From: Halobacteriales archaeon YIM A00013
Lineage (GTDB): Archaea > Halobacteriota > Halobacteria > Halobacteriales > Haloarculaceae
Length of the DNA: 64,000 bases
Assembly: GCA_025041195.1 (NCBI GenBank)
Contig: JAKCFM010000001.1
Location: 992,001-1,056,000, forward strand
Direction: 5' to 3'
The first letter of the stretch is position 1, and each line of letters opens with the position of its first letter. The notes beneath the pieces were generated by a model. The model was given only the letters and a program-made list of their open reading frames with translations, had not been told where the DNA came from and did not search any database. Positions 589 through 58,232 of the stretch are shown piece by piece. The position numbers were made by a program, and so were the translations under genes.

Positions 589-1131
589 ATGTCAGAGCTA
601 TCGCTTCCCCACGAGGCGCGTGCGGGTCCCACAAAACCGCCAGTCAGGGCTGTCGTCATGGAGACACTGGGGGTTGGTCCCCCGGACCACTTCGTCGATG
701 TCGGGTCATGTACTGGTGCGATGACGATCGAGGCGACGTTGCGGACTGATCGAGTGACAGCGATCGAGCGTGATCCGGACCGCGTTCGAGTAACCGAACA
801 GAATCTGCGAGCCAACGACGCGACAGATAGTGTGACGGTTATCAACGAGGAAGCACCCGCGGGACTACCGCCCGACGGCGACGTGTTGTTCATCGGCGGG
901 AGCCACAGATTCGATGCGGTGCTCGATCGAGCGATCGAGTACGACTACGATCGAATTGGGATGACTGTCTCGCGTCTCGAAGTGGCCGGCAACGCCACGA
1001 CGGCGTTCAAAGAGCGTGAGCTGCTCTCCGAGTTGCTTCAGTTGCAAGTTAGCCGGGGCTACGAACTGGCTGGTGCGATGAGCTTTCACTCGAACAATCC
1101 GGTGTTTTTCCTGCTGGGTGAGCCCGCGTGA
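589..1131 (+). CDS. cbiT: Cobalt-precorrin-6B C15-methyltransferase/decarboxylase CbiT
   Basis: CbiT methylates C15 and decarboxylates the C12 acetate chain of the corrin precursor in the anaerobic B12 route. The 180-residue product has the compact class I methyltransferase fold: a TKPPVRA start as in CbiT, an AdoMet-binding loop DVGSCTG at residues 37-43 and an acidic ribose-binding region AIERDP. The length fits stand-alone CbiT rather than the CobL fusion. It is the first gene of the operon, and its stop overlaps the cbiL start by 4 nt (1128-1131), suggesting translational coupling. The GSCTG loop differs from the commoner GCGTG form but keeps the glycines. Confidence 0.9.
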   Translation: MSELSLPHEARAGPTKPPVRAVVMETLGVGPPDHFVDVGSCTGAMTIEATLRTDRVTAIERDPDRVRVTEQNLRANDATDSVTVINEEAPAGLPPDGDVLFIGGSHRFDAVLDRAIEYDYDRIGMTVSRLEVAGNATTAFKERELLSELLQLQVSRGYELAGAMSFHSNNPVFFLLGEPA

Positions 1132-1835
1132 CGGTGTACGGCATTGGGCTTGGGCCAGGCGATCCATCGTTGCTCACCATCCGTGGAAAAACAGCACTTG
1201 AGTCGGTCTCAACGGTGTACACGCCGGGTCGACTCTCTCGTGCAGTCGTCTCTGCGCACGTCTCCGACGACCGTCTGGGATCGCTGTCGTTTCCGATGAC
1301 GCGCGATCCGGAGACGCTCCGTACGGCCTGGAAGGAGGCGGCCAACCGTATCGCAGCACAAGCGCAACAGGATGACGTGGCGTTCGTCACGCTCGGCGAT
1401 CCCAACGTGTACTCGACGTTCGGTCACCTTCGACGAACGCTTGCGGCCTTTCACCCGGCGATCGACGTCGAAGTCGTTCCCGGGGTGAGCGCGGTGACAG
1501 CGTTCACCAGCGCGCTTGGAGTAGAGCTCACCAGTACGACTGGACTGACGCTCTGTGAGGCTGCAAACGGCCCGATTCCCACCGACGCGCCACAGCTGCT
1601 GTTGTTCAAGCTGCTCGACGTTCCGTCGGTTCACGAGCAGCTCAGTGCTGCGAACTACGACGTGTGGTACGGTCGTCGGCTGTTCATGGAATCAGGGCCC
1701 ACCGTGGTGACTGACGACCCCACGGAGCTTGCCGATCGGGATTACTACACGCTTGCCTTTGCTCGAAAACGATCGTTCGAGGCGACGCCGGCGACGGCAG
1801 CCTTCACCGAAACACACGAGGTGGCAGATGGCTGA
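1128..1835 (+). CDS. cbiL: Cobalt-factor II C20-methyltransferase CbiL
   Basis: CbiL adds the C20 methyl group to cobalt-factor II. The product (235 aa) is a canonical tetrapyrrole methylase: glycine-rich N-terminus GIGLGPGDPSLLTIRG, the TLGDPNVYSTF motif at about residues 88-98, and EVVPGVSAVTAF near residue 120. The GDPSLLTIRGK and YSTF signatures separate it from CbiF and CbiH. A GTG start at 1128 overlaps the end of cbiT, and its stop overlaps the cbiF start by 8 nt. Cytosolic and part of the coupled operon. Confidence 0.9.
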   Translation: MTVYGIGLGPGDPSLLTIRGKTALESVSTVYTPGRLSRAVVSAHVSDDRLGSLSFPMTRDPETLRTAWKEAANRIAAQAQQDDVAFVTLGDPNVYSTFGHLRRTLAAFHPAIDVEVVPGVSAVTAFTSALGVELTSTTGLTLCEAANGPIPTDAPQLLLFKLLDVPSVHEQLSAANYDVWYGRRLFMESGPTVVTDDPTELADRDYYTLAFARKRSFEATPATAAFTETHEVADG

Positions 1836-2628
1836 GCCACCAGCCGTTCCGTTCGTTGGCGCAGGCCCGGGTGATCCGGGCTTGCTCACCGTTCGGGGGA
1901 AGACACTGCTAGAGCGCGCAGAGCTCGTGGTCCATGCCGGTTCGCTCGTGAACAGCGAGCTGCTCGATCGCTACTGTGAGTCAGCCGAACGCCACTCCTC
2001 GATCGGCATGGAGCTCGAAGAGATCGTTGCGATGATTCAATCGGCGTACGAGGCGGGTCGAACGGTCGTCCGTTTACACAGCGGTGATCCCTCGATCTAC
2101 GGCGCCGCCCTCGAACAGATCGATGCGCTCGCCACCCACAACGTGCCGGCGTATCTGGTGCCTGGCGTGACGGCCGCGTTTGCCGCAAGCGCTTCGCTCG
2201 GAACCCAACTCACACTCAACGGTGTCGCCAACCACGTCGCATTCACTCGACCACAGGGGACGACACTTGAGCCAGCAAACGATCACATCAGCGAATTCGT
2301 CGGAATGGGCGATGTGACGACCTGTATCTATCTGGGCACCCACGCCGTCCGGGAGACGATGGATCGACTGCTCGACGATGGTCGCGACCCCACAACGCCA
2401 GTGACGGTCGTCTATCACGCATCATGGCCCGACGAACGGATCATCACCGGGACGATCGAAACAATCGCCGATGAGCTATCCTCAAGTGGCATTTCGGCGT
2501 CCGCGCTCGTCATCATTGGCGACGTTCTCAGCGATGGCGAGTACGAGCGGTCGTATCTGTACGGTGATTGGGCAGCTGACAGTACTGCACGCAAACCGAC
2601 GACCACAGCTGAGGAATCCACCAAATGA
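1828..2628 (+). CDS. cbiF: Cobalt-precorrin-4 C11-methyltransferase CbiF
   Basis: CbiF methylates C11 of cobalt-precorrin-4. The ATG at 1828 is preferred because a longer frame from 1729 would add 33 Arg-rich residues inside cbiL and before the conserved start. From 1828 the product is 266 aa with FVGAGPGDPGLLTVRGK at the N-terminus, VVHAGSLV as in CbiF/CobM, LHSGDPSIYGA and LVPGVTAAFAASA. Length and motifs fit CbiF. It overlaps cbiL by 8 nt and cbiG by 4 nt. The last 20 or so residues are a hydrophilic tail. Confidence 0.92.
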   Translation: MAEPPAVPFVGAGPGDPGLLTVRGKTLLERAELVVHAGSLVNSELLDRYCESAERHSSIGMELEEIVAMIQSAYEAGRTVVRLHSGDPSIYGAALEQIDALATHNVPAYLVPGVTAAFAASASLGTQLTLNGVANHVAFTRPQGTTLEPANDHISEFVGMGDVTTCIYLGTHAVRETMDRLLDDGRDPTTPVTVVYHASWPDERIITGTIETIADELSSSGISASALVIIGDVLSDGEYERSYLYGDWAADSTARKPTTTAEESTK

Positions 2629-3578
2629 CAGAGACACAATCGACCAGCTCGACGCCGGATTCGGACGGAGAGGTCCCCGAACGGATCGCCATCATCAGCT
2701 TCGAACGAAAGCGCGAAACGGCGATTACGATCGAATCAGCACTTTCAGGAGCGTATGACACCGTCGAGATTCTGGAGTATCATGGCGACGTGTTCGCCGA
2801 CAACTGGGACGCGTACGACTGTTTCGTGGGGCTGATGGCGTCAGGGATTGCCGTCCGAAAGACTGCGGGGCTACTCGAAGACAAATGGGCCGACCCGGCG
2901 ATCGTCGTCGTCGACGAGTCGCTCACCTGGGCCGTTCCAATCACCGGTGGCCACCACGGCGCGAATCAGATTGCAACCGAACTTGCCGATCTTGGCGCCA
3001 TTCCAGCGACGACAACCGCCAGCGAAGCGGCCGGAAAACAGGGGGTCGAAGCCAGGGCGAAAGCACTCGATGCGCACGTGGTCAATGGTGATTCCACGGT
3101 ACAGACGAATTTGGCCGTTTTGAACGACGAGCTTGGCCCTGTCGCGAGAGTGGATGGCCCGCGGGCCGTGCTCGTTGACGAGGACGTGACGGTGTTGAAA
3201 CCGAACCCGGGCGCCGATCTCGTGCTCGGCACGGGGACGGTCGCTGATATTTCAGCGTCGGCAGTGACAGCAGCGTGGGACGCCACTCTTGCTGCGCTGG
3301 ATCGTGACCGATCCGACGTTTCGTTTGTGGCAACAGCCACTCGAAAAGGCGACGAAACTGGACTGCTTGAGGCGGCTGCCAGCCGTGGCTGGGGGGTGGT
3401 CTGTTTCGATAAGCCCACGCTCAAGCAGTTTGAGGGGCCATCATCCTCGAAAGCGCCGGCGCTGATCGGCTGGCCAGGGATCGCCGAGGCTGCCGCCATC
3501 GCGGGCGGCCGTGCACACGACTTGCAGCGTCCGAAAGAACGCTTCGATGCGGGCGTGACCGTGGCGGTGGGACGATGA
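2625..3578 (+). CDS. cbiG: Cobalt-precorrin-5A hydrolase CbiG
   Basis: CbiG opens the delta-lactone of cobalt-precorrin-5A and releases acetaldehyde, the ring-contraction step of the anaerobic route. The 317-aa product shows the N-terminal domain ([13 protein letters not shown]), the central region with LMASGIAVR and a [12 protein letters not shown] motif at about residues 105-117, and the CbiG_C domain ([17 protein letters not shown]). The length matches a single CbiG without fusion. It is coupled by 4-nt overlaps to cbiF and to cbiH1. Confidence 0.9.
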
Positions 3579-4450
3579 CTGCACACACGACGTCGCCACG
3601 GGCTGACGGCGGCGTGTTGTACGTGGTCGGGATGGGTCCAGGGCTACCCAAATCGATGACTTGGGCTGCCCGTTCGGTGATCGAACGGGCGGACTGTGTG
3701 ATCGCGTCGAATCTCTATCAGTCGCTCCTTCGAACCGATTCCGTGTTGCCAGAGAGATCTCGAACCCGCGAGGTTGCCGAGGACGTCACCATAGCCGAGC
3801 GATCGGATGGCACCGAGCAGACGATCGTCAGATCGTCGATGGGTCGACAGGTCGAACTGACCGAGATGGCGTTCGAACGCGTCCGTGATGGTGAGATCGT
3901 TGCGCACGTCTCCGGGGGGGATCCGAACGTCTACGGCAAGAGCGACCTCGTCTTCCAACTCGCCGCCGAAAGCGATGTTACCGACGTCCCCATCGAAATC
4001 GTTCCGGGCGTCACTGCAGCGCTTGCCTGTGGCGGCCGGCTCGGTGCACCGCTAAGCAATGATTTCTGCACGGTGTCCCTATCCGAAAAGTGGCGTCCAT
4101 GGGAACGGATCGAGGAGAAACTCCGCGCAGCCACCGCCAGTGGCTTCGTCATCGTGCTGTACAACTGCTGGCGGAATTACGCACGCGCGATCGAAGTAAT
4201 TCGAGAGCACCGCTCGGACGATGTGCCGGTTGGCATCGTCGTGGATGCTGCCCGCGAAGACGCTGGCCGACAGCCAGAGGGCGAATCGCAGACGATAACG
4301 ACGCTGGGCGGGGCTCCAGCTTACGATGATGCGGTCGGCGGAATGGGAACGTCCATCGTCGTCGGGACGACCGACAGCAGACGCTGGGAAAACGACTTTC
4401 GAACGCACCTGCTGACCCGTCGCGGCGGTCGCGACGTCACGGAGTTTTGA
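3575..4450 (+). CDS. cbiH1: Cobalt-factor III/precorrin-3B C17-methyltransferase paralogue CbiH1
   Basis: This is one of two adjacent CbiH/CobJ-type methylases. CbiH performs C17 methylation with ring contraction. The 291-aa product has VVGMGPGLPKSMTWAARSVI at the start, SGGDPNVYGKSDL at about residues 114-126 and EIVPGVTAALACGGRLGAPL. The family motif read as YNPWSRKR in the next gene is YNCWRNYA here, so the substrate-contact loop is altered. In haloarchaea two CbiH paralogues commonly stand side by side and their division of labour is not clear to me. It overlaps cbiG by 4 nt and is followed 7 nt later by cbiH2. Confidence 0.85.
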   Translation: MTAHTTSPRADGGVLYVVGMGPGLPKSMTWAARSVIERADCVIASNLYQSLLRTDSVLPERSRTREVAEDVTIAERSDGTEQTIVRSSMGRQVELTEMAFERVRDGEIVAHVSGGDPNVYGKSDLVFQLAAESDVTDVPIEIVPGVTAALACGGRLGAPLSNDFCTVSLSEKWRPWERIEEKLRAATASGFVIVLYNCWRNYARAIEVIREHRSDDVPVGIVVDAAREDAGRQPEGESQTITTLGGAPAYDDAVGGMGTSIVVGTTDSRRWENDFRTHLLTRRGGRDVTEF

Positions 4451-4457
4451 GTTACGC

Positions 4458-5354
4458 ATGACAGACACAACAGACTGTGGACAGACACCGGATGATGGAT
4501 CGTCGTCGTGTGCGAACGCGGCGTCGAACCGAGCGACGACGACCGAACAGGTTGCTGCGCGAGTTGAGTCGTTCGATGGCCCGGCTGGAACGCTGACAGC
4601 CGTGGGCATTGGCCCCGGTCATCCAGAGGGGATGACTCGCCGGGCACGTGAACGCTTATCGGCGGTCGATCAGATCGTTGGCTACACCACCTACGTTGAT
4701 CTCCTTGATGAGTCGATTCTCGACGGTGTCGAGGAGTGTTATACGACGCCGATGTGCGGAGAGGTGTCCAGGACGGAAGAAGCCGTAGACCGGGCGCTTG
4801 CTGGGAATTCGGTCGCCATCATCGGCAGCGGTGATCCGAACGTGTATGCCCTCGCTGGCCTCGCGCTCGAAATCCTCGAATCAAAGGGGGCGAGCGCGAG
4901 CGACGTGGCGTTTGACGTGATTCCCGGCGTTCCGGCAGCCCAGTCCTGTGGCGCACGGCTTGGCGCACCGCTGGTGAACGATAGCGTCAGTATCTCGCTG
5001 TCCGACCACCTCACGCCGATGGAAACGATCGAATCGCGGCTCGAAGCGATCGCCAGTGAGGGGTTCACGATCGCGATCTACAATCCGTGGTCACGAAAGC
5101 GACGGGCGAATTTCCAGCGCTGTTGTGAAATTCTCACTGAGCACAGAGCGCCATCAACGCCCGTCGGTATCGTTCACGGCGCGGGTCGAGACGACGAACG
5201 GACTGCTATTATCGAGCTCGAAGCACTCGAATCGTACGGCGAGACCGACCTCGTCGACATGACGACCACAATCATCATCGGAAACGACGAGACGTACGTT
5301 TTCGACGGCCGAATGGTGACGCCACGGGGGTACGAATCGAAGTATGACTACTGA
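4458..5354 (+). CDS. cbiH2: Cobalt-factor III C17-methyltransferase CbiH2
   Basis: This is the second CbiH paralogue and the closer to the classical enzyme. After an approximately 45-residue hydrophilic N-terminal extension it shows TAVGIGPGHPEGMTRRA, the GYTTYVDL loop, CGEVSRTEEAVDRA, GSGDPNVYALAGLALE and YNPWSRKR, all typical of CbiH/CobJ. Length is 298 aa. It should methylate C17 and contract the ring of cobalt-factor III. The stop at 5354 lies 11 nt inside the following ferredoxin gene. Paralogy with CbiH1 looks old: motifs are shared but flanking sequence is divergent. Confidence 0.9.
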   Translation: MTDTTDCGQTPDDGSSSCANAASNRATTTEQVAARVESFDGPAGTLTAVGIGPGHPEGMTRRARERLSAVDQIVGYTTYVDLLDESILDGVEECYTTPMCGEVSRTEEAVDRALAGNSVAIIGSGDPNVYALAGLALEILESKGASASDVAFDVIPGVPAAQSCGARLGAPLVNDSVSISLSDHLTPMETIESRLEAIASEGFTIAIYNPWSRKRRANFQRCCEILTEHRAPSTPVGIVHGAGRDDERTAIIELEALESYGETDLVDMTTTIIIGNDETYVFDGRMVTPRGYESKYDY

Positions 5355-5580
5355 GTACTCCGTTCGCCTCGATCGAACGGCCTGTGAGGGCGTCTTTGCC
5401 TGTCTGGTTCATGACGAGCGATTCGTTGAGGCGTCGGATGGGCTGGCCACGATCGCGGGCAGAGAACCACAACCGACCGTGACGATCGATTGTGATGACG
5501 AATCGATTAGAGCAGCCAGGCGAGCAGCAGCCGCGTGTCCGTTCGATGCGATCACCGTGTCGGTGAGTAACGATGAGTGA
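5344..5580 (+). CDS. Small single-cluster ferredoxin of the B12 operon
   Basis: A 78-aa acidic protein with Cys14, Cys20 and Cys65-Pro, the spacing (C-x5-C...CP) of small ferredoxins holding one [3Fe-4S] or [4Fe-4S] cluster. It starts 11 nt inside cbiH2 and ends inside the next gene, so it is co-translated with corrin enzymes. By context it may supply electrons for ring contraction (oxidation of precorrin-3B-type intermediates) or for the missing precorrin-6A reduction; the sequence does not say which. A fourth cluster ligand is not obvious, which favours [3Fe-4S]. Confidence 0.75.
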   Translation: MTTEYSVRLDRTACEGVFACLVHDERFVEASDGLATIAGREPQPTVTIDCDDESIRAARRAAAACPFDAITVSVSNDE

Positions 5581-6274
5581 TGATACCGTAGTGTCGTCGT
5601 TCACGACTCCTACCACCAAGACGGCCTATCTGTGGGGACGTATTATCGGCAATGGGAGCGTCACCGACGACGCCATTGTCGTCCGTGTTGGGGATCGAGC
5701 GCTCGCCAGTCGGCTGCGGTCGATTGGGAATCAGACGGGAACGCGGACACACGAAACAACGGCCACCCAGTCGGCACATGACGCCACTGTCACCCGCTTC
5801 AAGGCGACGTTCGAACTCCGGTATTCGCTTTGTTCGCGCGACATGGATCGGCTCACCGACCATCTCGATATCGACGGCCCTGGTGGCTGTCCGGAGCTGG
5901 ACCGATTCGAATCGTATCGCCAGCAGCTGTGTCGTGGCCTGCTGGAGTCGTGCGGAACGATCTGCTTTCGCGAATCGAGCGCGACCGTCGGCGTCTCGTT
6001 CGTCCACGACGACCGTGATGTCCTCCAGGAGATACGTCGCCAGCTCAGAGTGAGCGAGCCGACGGTGCGTACCAACCCAATCGAGGAGAGCAGTTCCGGT
6101 GGCTACTGGTTTGGGCTCGCAGACGCCACCGAGTTCGGCGCGTGTACGCGCTGGTGGTACGCCCAAAGCGACGATTCGGGGCTGTACGAGCCGGCTCGGC
6201 GGAACAAACTCCGTCGGAGCGTCGAACGCCATCTCGAACGCAGCGTTGGCGAGTTGCACGGTGATCCGGAATGA
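5573..6274 (+). CDS. LAGLIDADG-homing-endonuclease-like protein lacking catalytic acids, in B12 operon
   Basis: The 233-aa product has no recognised enzyme of the pathway in it. I see two LAGLIDADG-like helices about 100 residues apart: AYLWGRIIGNGSV (18-30) and QLCRGLLESCGTI (118-130), each followed by beta-rich sequence, as in two-domain LAGLIDADG proteins. The acidic residue expected near the end of each motif (A-D-G-S) is Asn27 and Cys127, so DNA cleavage is unlikely. The tail is Arg-rich (EPARRNKLRRSVERHLERS). It overlaps the ferredoxin by 8 nt and cbiX by 4 nt, so it belongs to the corrin operon. The role is unknown; a fold reused for nucleic-acid binding, regulation or a corrin step are all possible. 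Confidence 0.6.
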   Translation: MSDDTVVSSFTTPTTKTAYLWGRIIGNGSVTDDAIVVRVGDRALASRLRSIGNQTGTRTHETTATQSAHDATVTRFKATFELRYSLCSRDMDRLTDHLDIDGPGGCPELDRFESYRQQLCRGLLESCGTICFRESSATVGVSFVHDDRDVLQEIRRQLRVSEPTVRTNPIEESSSGGYWFGLADATEFGACTRWWYAQSDDSGLYEPARRNKLRRSVERHLERSVGELHGDPE

Positions 6275-7476
6275 CGCCACCCGCAAACGATGATGCGGTT
6301 GTGCTCGTCGGCCACGGCTCTCGTCGAGAGCGCTCAAACGAGCAGGTTCGAACGCTAGCGGCCGAATTCGAAGCACGGGTTCGTACGCCAGTCGATGTGG
6401 CCTTTCTCGAACTGGCGTCACCCTCGATCGGCGACGCTATCGACGGGCTCGCGCCGTCGGTGTCTGCGGTGACGGTCCTGCCACTGTCGCTGTTTGGGGC
6501 CAGCCACGTGAAAGCGGATATTCCGCTTGCCATCAATCAGGCCAGAGAGCGCCATCCTGAGCTACAGCTAGAGATGGGTGGGCCGATCGGCGTTCATCCG
6601 GCTGTGGTGACAATGTTGGACGAGGGCGTCCGATCCACTGAGCGAAACCTTGGCGTCGATCGCGACACCGATTCAATCGCAGTCATTCTCTGTGCGCGTG
6701 GCTCCAGTGATCCTGACGCCAACGGTGATGCGACGAAAGTCGCGCGGCTGCTGTATGAAGGCCGCCCGTTCGAACGAGTTACGACTGCCTTCATCGGAAT
6801 CACGGAGCCAACGCTCACCGACGCGCTACACGCCAGTGCGAAACACCGACCCGACGCGGTCGTTGTCGTGCCGTATATGCTCGGCGACGGCGTGTTGACC
6901 CAGCGGATCCATGACCGCACAACGGCGTTTGATGGCGAGTATCCCTCGCTCACAGTTGGCTCTGCGGAACCGATCGGAACGGACGAGCGCTTACTCGACG
7001 TGCTCGCCGATCGGCGAGCACAAGCTCGGGAAAACGACATCAATCTCTCGTGTGATACCTGCAAGTACAAGGTTGGACTCACGGGATTCACCGACGAGCT
7101 GGGTGGGGCGCAGGCAACGTTCCGCGCGGCAGCCCACCAGGTTGAACACGCAGACCGCTCGCAAGCAGGACGACACGCCCACGACGCACCAGAGCGACAC
7201 GTCGCGGTCTGCACCAATCGAACCTGTGCCGATGCTGGCGCGCTGTCCGTGTTGGAACAGCTTCGACAGTCCGTTCGAGACGGTGAACGTGCCGATGTGC
7301 AGATTACACGCTCGTCCTGTTTTGGACAGTGTGGCGATGGGCCAATGGTGGCCGTGTATCCCGACGATGTCTGGTACCGTGGCGTCTCATCCGACGATGC
7401 GGAGCGAATCGCTTCGTCCCATCTTGCGGGGGATAGTATTGTAACCGATCGCGTTCACACCGTACTCAAAAAATGA
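6271..7476 (+). CDS. cbiX: CbiX sirohydrochlorin cobaltochelatase fused to a thioredoxin-like [2Fe-2S] ferredoxin
   Basis: CbiX inserts Co2+ into sirohydrochlorin, the committing step of the anaerobic route. The 401-aa product has an N-terminal CbiX domain with the metal-handling histidines His15 (VGHGSRRE) and His79 (GASHVKADIP), then a second CbiX-like half (about 135-250) where VGHGS has become CARGSS, so that half is probably structural. A short region with Cys261-x2-Cys264 follows, then a C-terminal thioredoxin-like [2Fe-2S] domain with Cys314, Cys319, Cys350 and Cys354. This long form contrasts with the short archaeal CbiX-S. It overlaps its neighbours by 4 nt on both sides. The cluster could carry electrons or be a sensor. 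Confidence 0.88.
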   Translation: MTPPANDDAVVLVGHGSRRERSNEQVRTLAAEFEARVRTPVDVAFLELASPSIGDAIDGLAPSVSAVTVLPLSLFGASHVKADIPLAINQARERHPELQLEMGGPIGVHPAVVTMLDEGVRSTERNLGVDRDTDSIAVILCARGSSDPDANGDATKVARLLYEGRPFERVTTAFIGITEPTLTDALHASAKHRPDAVVVVPYMLGDGVLTQRIHDRTTAFDGEYPSLTVGSAEPIGTDERLLDVLADRRAQARENDINLSCDTCKYKVGLTGFTDELGGAQATFRAAAHQVEHADRSQAGRHAHDAPERHVAVCTNRTCADAGALSVLEQLRQSVRDGERADVQITRSSCFGQCGDGPMVAVYPDDVWYRGVSSDDAERIASSHLAGDSIVTDRVHTVLKK

Positions 7477-7844
7477 GCTGTGACGAACTCGAAGCCCTTC
7501 GCGTTGGGCTCTGTAACGTTCTTGGTATCGACCGGCCCGCAATTCGTGAACACGCACTGGCCGAACTCGAGGGCAATCTCGATGGGCCAGTTGGCGCGCT
7601 GGTAAACGCGTCCTCGGTGGCCGAACTCGAACGCCATCTCGACGCCGCACTCGTCGACCTAGAGTCGAAACTCGCCTCCACGCCATCAGACGACCCGGAG
7701 TACGACTATCTCCGCGGGCGGCTGCTTGCACTCAGGGAGGCTGAACGATCGATTCGCCGGCTCAGAGAGGAGGGTGCGTCGATTCTGGAGGGCTGTGGCG
7801 AGACGCATTCGTTGCTGCATGAACTGTTCCCGGTTGAAGGGTGA
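7473..7844 (+). CDS. Small helical protein of the haloarchaeal B12 operon (DUF3209-like)
   Basis: A 123-aa acidic protein, mostly predicted helical, beginning MSCDELEALRVGLCNVLG and ending in a Cys/His-containing segment (ILEGCGETHSLLHELF). Cys3, Cys14 and Cys109 with His112 and His116 could bind metal or a cluster. It resembles the haloarchaeal family I remember as DUF3209; that assignment is from memory. It is coupled by a 4-nt overlap to cbiX and is the last gene of the tight operon, so a role as partner of CbiX or as a cobalt handler is a reasonable inference. Confidence 0.65.
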   Translation: MSCDELEALRVGLCNVLGIDRPAIREHALAELEGNLDGPVGALVNASSVAELERHLDAALVDLESKLASTPSDDPEYDYLRGRLLALREAERSIRRLREEGASILEGCGETHSLLHELFPVEG

Positions 7845-17559: not shown

Positions 17560-18298
17560 GCGCAACGACTACCAGGATCCGGCCACGATCGCTTCCGCAA
17601 CCCCAGAGATGACAGCGCCGACCGATCCGGTGGTTGCCGTTGGCGTCGGTCCCGGCAATCTTGATTTTCTCACGCCACGAGCCGAGAACGCACTGACTGG
17701 GGCAGACGTGGTTGTTGGCTTCGAAACGGTGATCGAGCTGGTCAAGCGCCGGATTACGGGAACGACACTGCCGTGTGAATACGACATTGAAGCCACGCAG
17801 ATCGAGCGATTCGCAGAGCAGGTCGGAGCAGGTGCGAGCGGGACGGCCGTCCTGATGGGTGATCCCAACCACTCAGGCTATCAGTTTCTGGGGAAAATCG
17901 AGGCGGCCGTTGATCGACCGGTGCGCGTCGTCCCGGGGATTTCGTCGGTCCAGCTCGCTGCGAGCCGTGCCAGGACGCCGATGGAAGCCACCACGTTTGT
18001 GACGCTCCATCAGCGCGGCCCACTGACTGACGCTCTCGAACGGCTGGCGACCGACGTGGGACGACGCCATCTGCTTGTGCTCCCGCGGCCCGGCGACTGG
18101 ATGCCCGAAGCAATAGCCGAATGGCTGCTCGAAGCAGGTGCCGCTCCGTCTGCGACGGCACTCGTCATGGAGCGGCTCAGTATGGCCGACGAGCGAATCC
18201 ACCGGTCGACGCTTGCTGAGCTCGCTGGCCAGCCAGCCCAGTCCGCGTTCACTCCCCTTTCGGTCCTCGCCGTCCGGCAAACGAACGAGACTCACTGA
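17552..18298 (+). CDS. cbiE: Cobalt-precorrin-7 C5-methyltransferase CbiE
   Basis: CbiE methylates C5. I use the ATG at 17552 (248 aa; an ATG at 17549 is equally possible); both overlap the cbiC stop. Motifs are VVAVGVGPGNLDFLTPRAENAL, VVGFETVIEL, AVLMGDPNHSGYQFLGK and VVPGISSVQLAASRARTP, typical of CbiE rather than CobL because the CbiT half is separate (first gene of the locus). About 25 hydrophilic residues precede the fold. Its last 50 nt overlap, tail to tail, the 3' end of the gene on the other strand. Confidence 0.9.
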   Translation: MTERNDYQDPATIASATPEMTAPTDPVVAVGVGPGNLDFLTPRAENALTGADVVVGFETVIELVKRRITGTTLPCEYDIEATQIERFAEQVGAGASGTAVLMGDPNHSGYQFLGKIEAAVDRPVRVVPGISSVQLAASRARTPMEATTFVTLHQRGPLTDALERLATDVGRRHLLVLPRPGDWMPEAIAEWLLEAGAAPSATALVMERLSMADERIHRSTLAELAGQPAQSAFTPLSVLAVRQTNETH

Positions 18299-19082
18299 GC
18301 AACCCCTCACCAGTCGGCCGGGGTCCGCCCACGCGTGGACGAGTCGGTGTTGGTGGGTGGCGGCCGAATCCGATGTCAGTGGCCGCCCCAATCGTCTGCT
18401 GTGCGCTGAGCTCAGCCTGAATGGCCGCCGTGATACCAGGATGGGTCCCGATCGGGCGTGTGATCGAAAATTCCGTGCGAGAATCGTCCAGCACCGACCG
18501 CAGCCGATCGGAGCGCTGTGGTGCATCGAGCAGCCACAGGCCAACGGCGACCGCAGACTCACACTGCAGCCGCTCCGTGACGGTTTCGACCGCCGGATCC
18601 TCCAGCAGATAACACGGATGGACTGTATCAACTGGCCCGTCTCGGGCGAGTAGATCGGCATGGTAGGTTGTCACAGCTCGACTGTACGGCGTCGACGGAC
18701 TCCCACGACCGACAACGACCAGCGGGACCCGCTCTTCGGCTGGTGTGCAGTCTCGAACGAGCTCCGCGATGGCCGTCGTGACGATCGCACGCCGACCCGG
18801 CGGCCGACAGAGCTGCACCTCTCCTGGAATGTGTGTTAGCTGTGGAATCAGCGCGTGCTCGGTCGTAGGCGCTCGCGCCATCTCCAACACGACCACGTAG
18901 ACGCGCTCGCCCGCCACGTTCGAGAGCGGGGCCGCCAGCTCCTCTGCGGGGTCCGTATCGTAGCGTACAGTGGTGATTCGGTCCATTTCTGTCTGTGCTT
19001 CGAGCCGATCGGCGTGTGTTTCAAGGACGGCTCGTCCGTTGTGGCGACCACAGCCGATGAGAAGCAGTGTTTCGTCGGTCAT
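18249..19082 (-). CDS. Degenerate CbiX-like protein
   Basis: The 277-aa product looks like a two-half CbiX-family protein (LLLIGCGRHNGRAVLE at the start, VPLVVVGRGSPSTPYSRAV at about residue 120). The metal-binding His of the VGHGS motif is replaced in both places (IGCGR, VGRGS). The tail after residue 235 is Pro/Arg/Gly-rich and lies in the 50-nt overlap with cbiE. It may be a scaffold, chaperone or sensor rather than a chelatase, or a paralogue with a different substrate. It is expressed from its own promoter (AATAATTA at 19111-19118, about 30 nt before the ATG). Confidence 0.6.
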   Translation of the reverse strand: MTDETLLLIGCGRHNGRAVLETHADRLEAQTEMDRITTVRYDTDPAEELAAPLSNVAGERVYVVVLEMARAPTTEHALIPQLTHIPGEVQLCRPPGRRAIVTTAIAELVRDCTPAEERVPLVVVGRGSPSTPYSRAVTTYHADLLARDGPVDTVHPCYLLEDPAVETVTERLQCESAVAVGLWLLDAPQRSDRLRSVLDDSRTEFSITRPIGTHPGITAAIQAELSAQQTIGAATDIGFGRHPPTPTRPRVGGPRPTGEGLLSESRSFAGRRGPKGE

Positions 19083-57005: not shown

Positions 57006-58232
57006 ATGAAATACAACTACCGGTACAGACTCGACCCGTCCGATGCTCTCCAAGAGACGTTGGACCGGCATCGGGATCTGTATCGGCAAGTGTACAACCA
57101 CTTTCTCTATCGACTCAACCAAGAAGACGAGACGACGAAATACGGTGAAATCAATCAGCTTCCGTCGATTAAGCAGTGGTGGGACGACCTCACCGGCCTG
57201 TATTCCCGAACGCTACAGAACGTCGTTGAGAGATTGTACACCAACCTCTCACGGCTGGAGGTCGCGAAGGAAAATGGTCGTGAGGTTGGCCTGCTCAAGT
57301 GGAAAGCGCCGACCGAGTACCGATCATTCACGTATAGACAGTCTGGGTTCGAGCTCAAGAACACGAGTGGTCAGACCGTCCTACGGCTTTCAAAGATCGG
57401 AACAATACCTGTTCATTTCCACCGAGAGATCCCCGAGAACGCGACTATCAAACAGGTTACGGTGAAAAAGGAACCGACGGGCGAGTGGTTCGCCACATTC
57501 GGCGTCGAAACGCCCGAAGAACCACCTAAAAAACCCGAAAACCCCGAGAAGTGCGTCGGTATCGACGTGGGGATTCTCAAGTACGCTCACGACACCGATG
57601 GAACCGCCGTCGAATCGCTTGATCTCTCGGACGAACGTGAACGATTGGAACGCGAACAACGGAAGCTCTCGCGGAAAGAGCACGGCTCCAACAACTGGGA
57701 GAAACAGCGGAAGGTCGTTGCTGAGCGCCACGCCGATCTCAAGCGAAAGCGCCGGGATTTCCTCCATAAACTGTCGGGTTACTATGCCAGTGAATACGAT
57801 CTCGTCGCTGTCGAAGACTTGAACGTCGCCGGAATGATGCAGTTCGATTCAAACTCCCGAAACCGCGCATCCGCCGCCTGGGGGACTTTTCTCCGGATGC
57901 TTGAGTATAAATGCGAACGAGAAGGCACGCACTATGTTCCGGTCGAGCCGAAAGATACCACCAAAGAGTGTGCGGTTTGCGGCGTTAAAACCAATAAACC
58001 GTTGTCGGTCCGCGAACACTCCTGTCCATCATGTGGCTTCACGGCGGACAGGGATGCGAACGCCGCCTGGAACATTCTTTCAAGCGGCCTCGAAGAAATA
58101 GGAGTGGGATACTCCGAATCAATGCCTGTGGAGACTGCACTCCCTGAAGATACATCTGTATCTGCAAAGTTCGTCGTGGAAACAGGAAGTCCCGACCTCA
58201 AGGAACGAGCCGTGTCAGCGGCGAGTGAGTAG
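57006..58232 (+). CDS. tnpB: TnpB RNA-guided nuclease (IS1341-type)
   Basis: TnpB is a guide-RNA-directed DNA nuclease, ancestor of Cas12. The 408-aa chain starts with the conserved KYNYRYRLDPSDALQETL helical part, then RuvC-like catalytic residues Asp187 (GIDVGILKYA), Glu270 (VAVEDLNVAG) and Asp350 (TADRDANAAWNI). The zinc finger is Cys322, Cys325, Cys340, Cys343. All are intact, so it could be active. The guide RNA would overlap the 3' end of the gene and continue past 58232. Confidence 0.92.
   Translation: MKYNYRYRLDPSDALQETLDRHRDLYRQVYNHFLYRLNQEDETTKYGEINQLPSIKQWWDDLTGLYSRTLQNVVERLYTNLSRLEVAKENGREVGLLKWKAPTEYRSFTYRQSGFELKNTSGQTVLRLSKIGTIPVHFHREIPENATIKQVTVKKEPTGEWFATFGVETPEEPPKKPENPEKCVGIDVGILKYAHDTDGTAVESLDLSDERERLEREQRKLSRKEHGSNNWEKQRKVVAERHADLKRKRRDFLHKLSGYYASEYDLVAVEDLNVAGMMQFDSNSRNRASAAWGTFLRMLEYKCEREGTHYVPVEPKDTTKECAVCGVKTNKPLSVREHSCPSCGFTADRDANAAWNILSSGLEEIGVGYSESMPVETALPEDTSVSAKFVVETGSPDLKERAVSAASE

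Follow-up and report, generated by a model that had tools for sequence, protein, structure and literature searches.

What might a homing-endonuclease fold be doing within an operon for vitamin B12 (cobalamin) synthesis? This question is raised by a gene at 5573–6274 (+ strand) of a 64,000-nucleotide stretch from Halobacteriales archaeon YIM A00013 (assembly GCA_025041195.1, contig JAKCFM010000001.1, positions 992,001 to 1,056,000), the whole of which is referred to here as the window. The gene starts with ATG and encodes a 233-aa protein of the HVO_B0055 type found in cob clusters, hereafter LAG (LAGLIDADG-fold protein), characterised from its open reading frame (ORF) and translation, its homologues, its predicted fold and Pfam. 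The initial annotation had taken two motifs, AYLWGRIIGNGSV and QLCRGLLESCGTI, as LAGLIDADG helices of a protein that had lost its catalytic acids and become a fixed part of the corrin operon; both motifs occur in the translation as quoted, at residues 18–30 and 118–130, respectively.

The window protein alone had no match in single-sequence searches of Pfam, NCBIfam and PDB, and the LAGLIDADG relation emerged only with a family alignment and a structural model. The family comprised 96 distinct loci and sequences, 95 of which were aligned as homologues for Pfam matching; 42 of these 95 matched LAGLIDADG_3 (PF14528) at E ≤ 0.1 (best E 2.7e-5). In hhalign comparisons with haloarchaeal intein nucleases, including that of the window genome, both motifs were aligned over 195–201 columns with one-to-one E values of about 1e-5. 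A profile search with LAG found no LAGLIDADG chain among PDB sequences, and the link therefore rests on Pfam, hhalign and structure. A template-free AlphaFold2 model based on the deep family alignment reached a predicted local distance difference test score (pLDDT) of 89.0 and a predicted template modelling score (pTM) of 0.87, and its confident Foldseek matches were exclusively LAGLIDADG proteins (WhiA, I-DmoI, I-SceI and inteins). VIA-align placed PI-PfuI closest (Z 14.9 over 183 residues, 3.3 Å), along with E-DreI and I-DmoI (both Z 14.1) and WhiA (Z 13.6). The structural comparison proposed in the initial annotation thus bore out its assignment, with Z scores of 14–15 to LAGLIDADG nucleases. 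According to the model, LAG is a two-repeat LAGLIDADG protein, in which two alpha-beta-beta-alpha-beta-beta-alpha repeats are joined at the LAGLIDADG helices and the fold spans residues about 12–223.

The predicted fold is accompanied by a disrupted nuclease site. The first LAGLIDADG-type helix covers residues 17–30 (5621–5662), with Asn27 (codon 5651–5653) at the first catalytic-acid position. The second helix and the next strand cover residues 118–131 (5924–5965) and include Cys127 (5951–5953), Cys131 (5963–5965) and the invariant Arg121 and Glu125. The hhalign alignments paired Asn27 with Glu and Cys127 with Asp at the catalytic positions of the intein nucleases. Across the 96 sequences, Asp is the commonest residue at position 27 (54 sequences), followed by Ser (24), Asn (eight), Ala (five), Gly (four) and Glu (one), while position 127 is Cys in 95. 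The claimed loss of both acids was therefore correct for the window protein and extended through the family for the second acid, but the loss of the first was not family-wide. In the alignment of homologues that the initial annotation had proposed, none of the 96 sequences carries both acids. His69 (codon 5777–5779; 96 of 96), Arg121, Glu125, Gly128 and Cys131 are invariant. The most divergent homologue (L082) keeps His69, Arg121, Glu125, Cys127 and Cys131 but has lost Asp41, Asp70, Arg75, His145 and Asp147. In homing endonucleases, each of the two LAGLIDADG helices ends in a catalytic acid, unlike in LAG; judged from these residues, it has the fold yet falls outside the definition of a LAGLIDADG nuclease and is nuclease-dead.

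Of the genomes examined, 137 of 293 in the order and 206 of 391 in the class carry a LAG homologue; among 295 genomes sampled from the phylum, 24 had a match, and all 24 belonged to the same order. A homologue from a genome of the window's genus was identical to the Actinarchaeum halophilum YIM 93972 protein and shared 81%–82% identity with the window LAG. Substitution rates relative to the nearest homologue indicate that the gene is under purifying selection (nonsynonymous rate dN 0.097, synonymous rate dS 0.430, dN/dS about 0.23). Its ORF overlaps that of the preceding ferredoxin by 8 nt and that of the following cbiX by 4 nt, as the initial annotation had stated, and the ferredoxin–LAG–cbiX order is preserved in 93 of the 96 loci, which agrees with its view of LAG as a fixed part of the corrin operon rather than a mobile intron or intein. 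With start codons chosen automatically, the LAG/cbiX overlap is 4 nt in 47 loci and the ferredoxin/LAG overlap 4 or 8 nt in 76. An apparent LAG–CbiX fusion in one locus (L083) was rejected as a functional hint; it looks like a frameshift at the gene overlap. These observations bear on whether LAG still cuts DNA as a homing endonuclease or did so until recently. The fold itself and the Asp27 retained in 54 of the 96 homologues would be in keeping with such an activity, whereas the second acid is never present, the operon position is nearly constant with no intron or intein, and no LAG homologue was found in 50,697 phage records; this explanation is scarcely credible. Archaeal LAGLIDADG homing endonucleases (PI-PfuI, I-DmoI; Pfam LAGLIDADG_3) share the fold and the aligned helices with LAG, and the window protein differs from them in its Asn27 and Cys127, its lack of an intron or intein context and its immobility.

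To our knowledge, domesticated LAGLIDADG proteins are few, and those studied best act on nucleic acids. WhiA/DUF199 resembles LAG in that a two-repeat LAGLIDADG fold has lost its catalytic acids and become fixed as a host gene (PMC3781837). LAG might analogously be a nucleic-acid-binding regulator of the cob operon, like this degenerate LAGLIDADG transcription factor, given that LAGLIDADG is a DNA-binding fold and WhiA is among the nearest solved structures. However, the DNA-binding part of WhiA is a helix-turn-helix domain (PMC3781837), and LAG, with 233 residues and a fold ending at about 223, has no helix-turn-helix family match. Its strand residues carry a net negative charge (−0.07 per residue), although halophile intein nucleases are acidic too, and a regulatory role would leave the invariant Cys/His set unexplained. 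LAG further differs from WhiA in lying in a B12 operon and in the invariant Cys that occupies its second catalytic position. A regulatory function thus seems fairly unlikely.

The gene itself has been noted before. HVO_B0055 of Haloferax volcanii corresponds to LAG by synteny, lying between cbiX1 (HVO_B0054) and cbiH2 (HVO_B0057), and is carried as "function unassigned" in a report in which the word LAGLIDADG does not occur (PMC8305020, Table 3). No paper joining LAGLIDADG with haloarchaeal cobalamin was found in the literature searched, and the LAGLIDADG identity of this conserved unassigned cob gene appears to be unreported there. The initial annotation had presented the reuse of the fold as new. 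This holds for the link to a B12 cluster within that literature, but not for domestication as such, for which WhiA/DUF199 is a precedent, nor for the gene, which was flagged in 2021. The known uses of this fold would be widened by a LAGLIDADG protein fixed in cofactor synthesis whose former nuclease acid has given way to an invariant Cys.

The operon, all on the + strand, reads cbiT-cbiL-cbiF-cbiG-cbiH1-cbiH2-ferredoxin-LAG-cbiX-DUF3209. The first four genes (589–3578) were assigned from ORFs and family searches, and family searches likewise identified cbiH1 (3575–4450), a divergent CbiH paralogue, and cbiH2 (4458–5354). The small Fe-S ferredoxin (Fer4_15) is encoded at 5344–5580. The product of cbiX (6271–7476) combines two CbiX domains and a CxxC motif with a thioredoxin-like 2Fe-2S ferredoxin domain at its C terminus, and DUF3209 (7473–7844) is a helical protein with invariant Cys3, His27, His55, His112 and His116. 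The association of LAG with the pathway extends across genomes, as CbiG was present in 41 of 41 LAG-positive genomes tested versus only six of 119 LAG-negative genomes (G010, G012, G271, G039, G112 and G121, the last having a contig that stops inside cbiG).

CbiD (PF01888) and CbiJ (PF02571) were absent from all 80 haloarchaeal genomes searched, with positive controls elsewhere, so that their absence, which the initial annotation had noted, holds for the whole window genome and 79 others. This result matches published gaps in the haloarchaeal pathway (PMC8305020, PMC6719526, PMC3403918), and HVO_B0055 belongs to a set of four conserved cob-cluster genes that were listed as unassigned in 2021 and proposed as gap fillers (PMC8305020). 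These gaps and that proposal would favour LAG as a replacement for a missing enzyme, either the CbiD C1-methyltransferase or the CbiJ reductase. However, LAG matched neither the CbiD nor the CbiJ profile, nor any enzyme family in the family searches. Furthermore, four genomes (G010, G012, G039 and G271) keep cbiT-L-F-G-H1-H2-X without LAG, and CbiD and CbiJ were also not found in the three of them that were searched (G010, G012 and G271); a fifth, G112, lacks LAG alone. LAG is dispensable for a cob operon in some lineages, which speaks against an essential missing enzyme. Because related operons lack LAG as well as CbiD and CbiJ, the substitution suggested in the initial annotation is not supported, and this role for LAG is unlikely, distinctly so in our estimation. 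The LAG-less operons narrow the question of how haloarchaea make B12 in air via an oxygen-independent route with two steps unassigned, in that they make cbiH1, or genes elsewhere, better candidates for these steps. With regard to the missing C1 methylation, cbiH1 (3575–4450 in the window), which occurs in both operon types, is a better candidate than LAG, because CobF, the aerobic C1-methyltransferase, belongs to the methylase family of CbiH1.

The LAG-less operons differ from that of the window in more than LAG. In all four genomes, the locus lacks the ferredoxin, LAG, the CbiX 2Fe-2S domain and DUF3209, and the CbiX tail contains 11–21 His residues versus a mean of 4.4 in LAG-positive operons. 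In a tree of five concatenated operon proteins, the four LAG-less operons formed one clade (support 1.0), while their genomes come from three families, which suggests that this operon type arose in one event followed by transfer. Loci L129, L130, L131 and L154 represent a second haloarchaeal cob operon type, spread over three families, in which CbiX is His-tailed and the ferredoxin, LAG and DUF3209 are missing. G112 and G011 show further arrangements. G112 still has the ferredoxin, the 2Fe-2S CbiX and DUF3209, but between the ferredoxin and the long cbiX, exactly where LAG would be, it carries an additional short cbiX (L153:12703–13644), whose His-tailed product is 64% identical to the genome's long CbiX. 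In G011, all four parts are present but scattered: the ferredoxin follows cbiH2, CbiX and DUF3209 are elsewhere, and LAG lies outside the cob operon, where one cation-efflux gene is 24 nt away and a further one follows downstream. Both of these unusual contexts involve metal handling. The outlier LAG locus (L082:4599–7608; 32% identity) has no cob operon and is flanked by two CDF-type cation-efflux genes.

Taken together, these findings led us to prefer, tentatively, a cobalt-handling role. In oxygen-respiring haloarchaea, a LAGLIDADG homing-endonuclease fold may have been domesticated to serve the cobalt-early ("anaerobic") corrin pathway as a non-catalytic subunit. The conserved Cys127, Cys131 and His69 would make up a putative transition-metal site that replaced the Mg site of the nuclease, and LAG could work alongside the ferredoxin and the CbiX cobaltochelatase as a metallochaperone or loading partner. 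A cobalt-handling role is favoured by the fold, the dead nuclease site, the persistence of the Cys/His residues in L082, the fixation in the operon and the co-occurrence with CbiG, as well as by the cation-efflux neighbours in G011, the His-tailed CbiX in the LAG slot of G112 and the His-rich tails in LAG-less operons. CbiX-L of Bacillus megaterium contains an MXCXXC motif and a His-rich tail, for which a role in metal storage and delivery has been proposed (PMC7689651). This tail resembles that of CbiX in the LAG-less haloarchaeal operons; LAG, in contrast, is a separate protein of unrelated fold and might functionally replace such a tail. From the conserved Cys/His residues and the gene context, LAG as a cobalt-handling accessory of an oxygen-tolerant haloarchaeal corrin pathway is a plausible reading, although we hold it with less than even confidence. 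The fuller version, in which the nuclease metal site was rebuilt from acid to Cys into a transition-metal site and LAG became a cobalt factor helping the "anaerobic" B12 pathway in air, is rather doubtful.

The part played by air is favoured by the distribution of the terminal oxidase. Heme-copper oxidase subunit I (COX1) was undetected in only six of 293 genomes (G010, G012, G039, G101 and the incomplete genomes G019 and G185). All six lack LAG, and three (G010, G012 and G039) have a cob operon; conversely, the oxidase is present in all 137 LAG-positive genomes. As G012 and G039 belong to one genus and the LAG-less operons have a common origin, the pattern represents at most two independent lineages.

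Several observations weigh against cobalt handling by LAG. With a single LAG-less clade, very few independent events underlie the His-tail and oxygen patterns, and G271 is LAG-less yet has the oxidase. Thermus and Leptospira have the 2Fe-2S CbiX and DUF3209 but neither LAG nor a strongly His-rich tail; therefore, LAG is not a general need of this CbiX type. In mirror-tree comparisons, LAG distances tracked CbiH1, CbiH2 and CbiG (r 0.72–0.74), with CbiH1 the most strongly correlated partner, over CbiX (0.58) and DUF3209 (0.30). The last of these results would fit another role, in which LAG and the ferredoxin act on cobalt-corrin intermediates as a redox or corrin accessory, for example in reductive ring contraction at the CbiH/CbiG stage, and are needed in air. 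The LAG–ferredoxin correlation (0.63), the overlap of the two genes, their joint absence from the four LAG-less operons and the oxidase-less genomes whose cob operon lacks the ferredoxin–LAG module all point in this direction. On the other hand, LAG matched no redox-cofactor family in the family searches, G112 retains the ferredoxin without LAG, and G011 has the ferredoxin in the operon with LAG elsewhere. Such a redox function is possible, and we consider it less probable than cobalt handling.

The same comparisons clarify the neighbours of LAG. The CbiX parts and DUF3209 intercorrelate (r 0.64–0.72), and in Thermus and Leptospira, whose cob cluster includes CbiD but not LAG, DUF3209 directly follows the 2Fe-2S CbiX. 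The ferredoxin, LAG, the CbiX 2Fe-2S domain and DUF3209 had been considered as a single module; this was dropped, because the latter two are separable in these bacteria. CbiX and DUF3209 are a wider pair, to which LAG and the ferredoxin look like a haloarchaeal addition. The DUF3209 model is helical (pLDDT 94.6), with a solved relative in TTHB059 of Thermus thermophilus (2ehw). DUF3209 is a likely metal-binding partner of the 2Fe-2S CbiX type.

Elsewhere in the window, DUF3209 is followed on its 3′ side by ABC-transporter-like genes and, farther on, by chlID-like, cobN and cbiA-like genes, the cbiA-like gene encoding a CobB/CobQ-type glutamine amidotransferase. Another CbiX-family protein (weak PF01903 match, E 5.9e-6) is encoded at 18252–19082 (− strand), near cobN and a TP_methylase gene. 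An IS605-type OrfB/TnpB-like gene with Cas12f1-like_TNB and OrfB_IS605 domains lies at 57006–58232.
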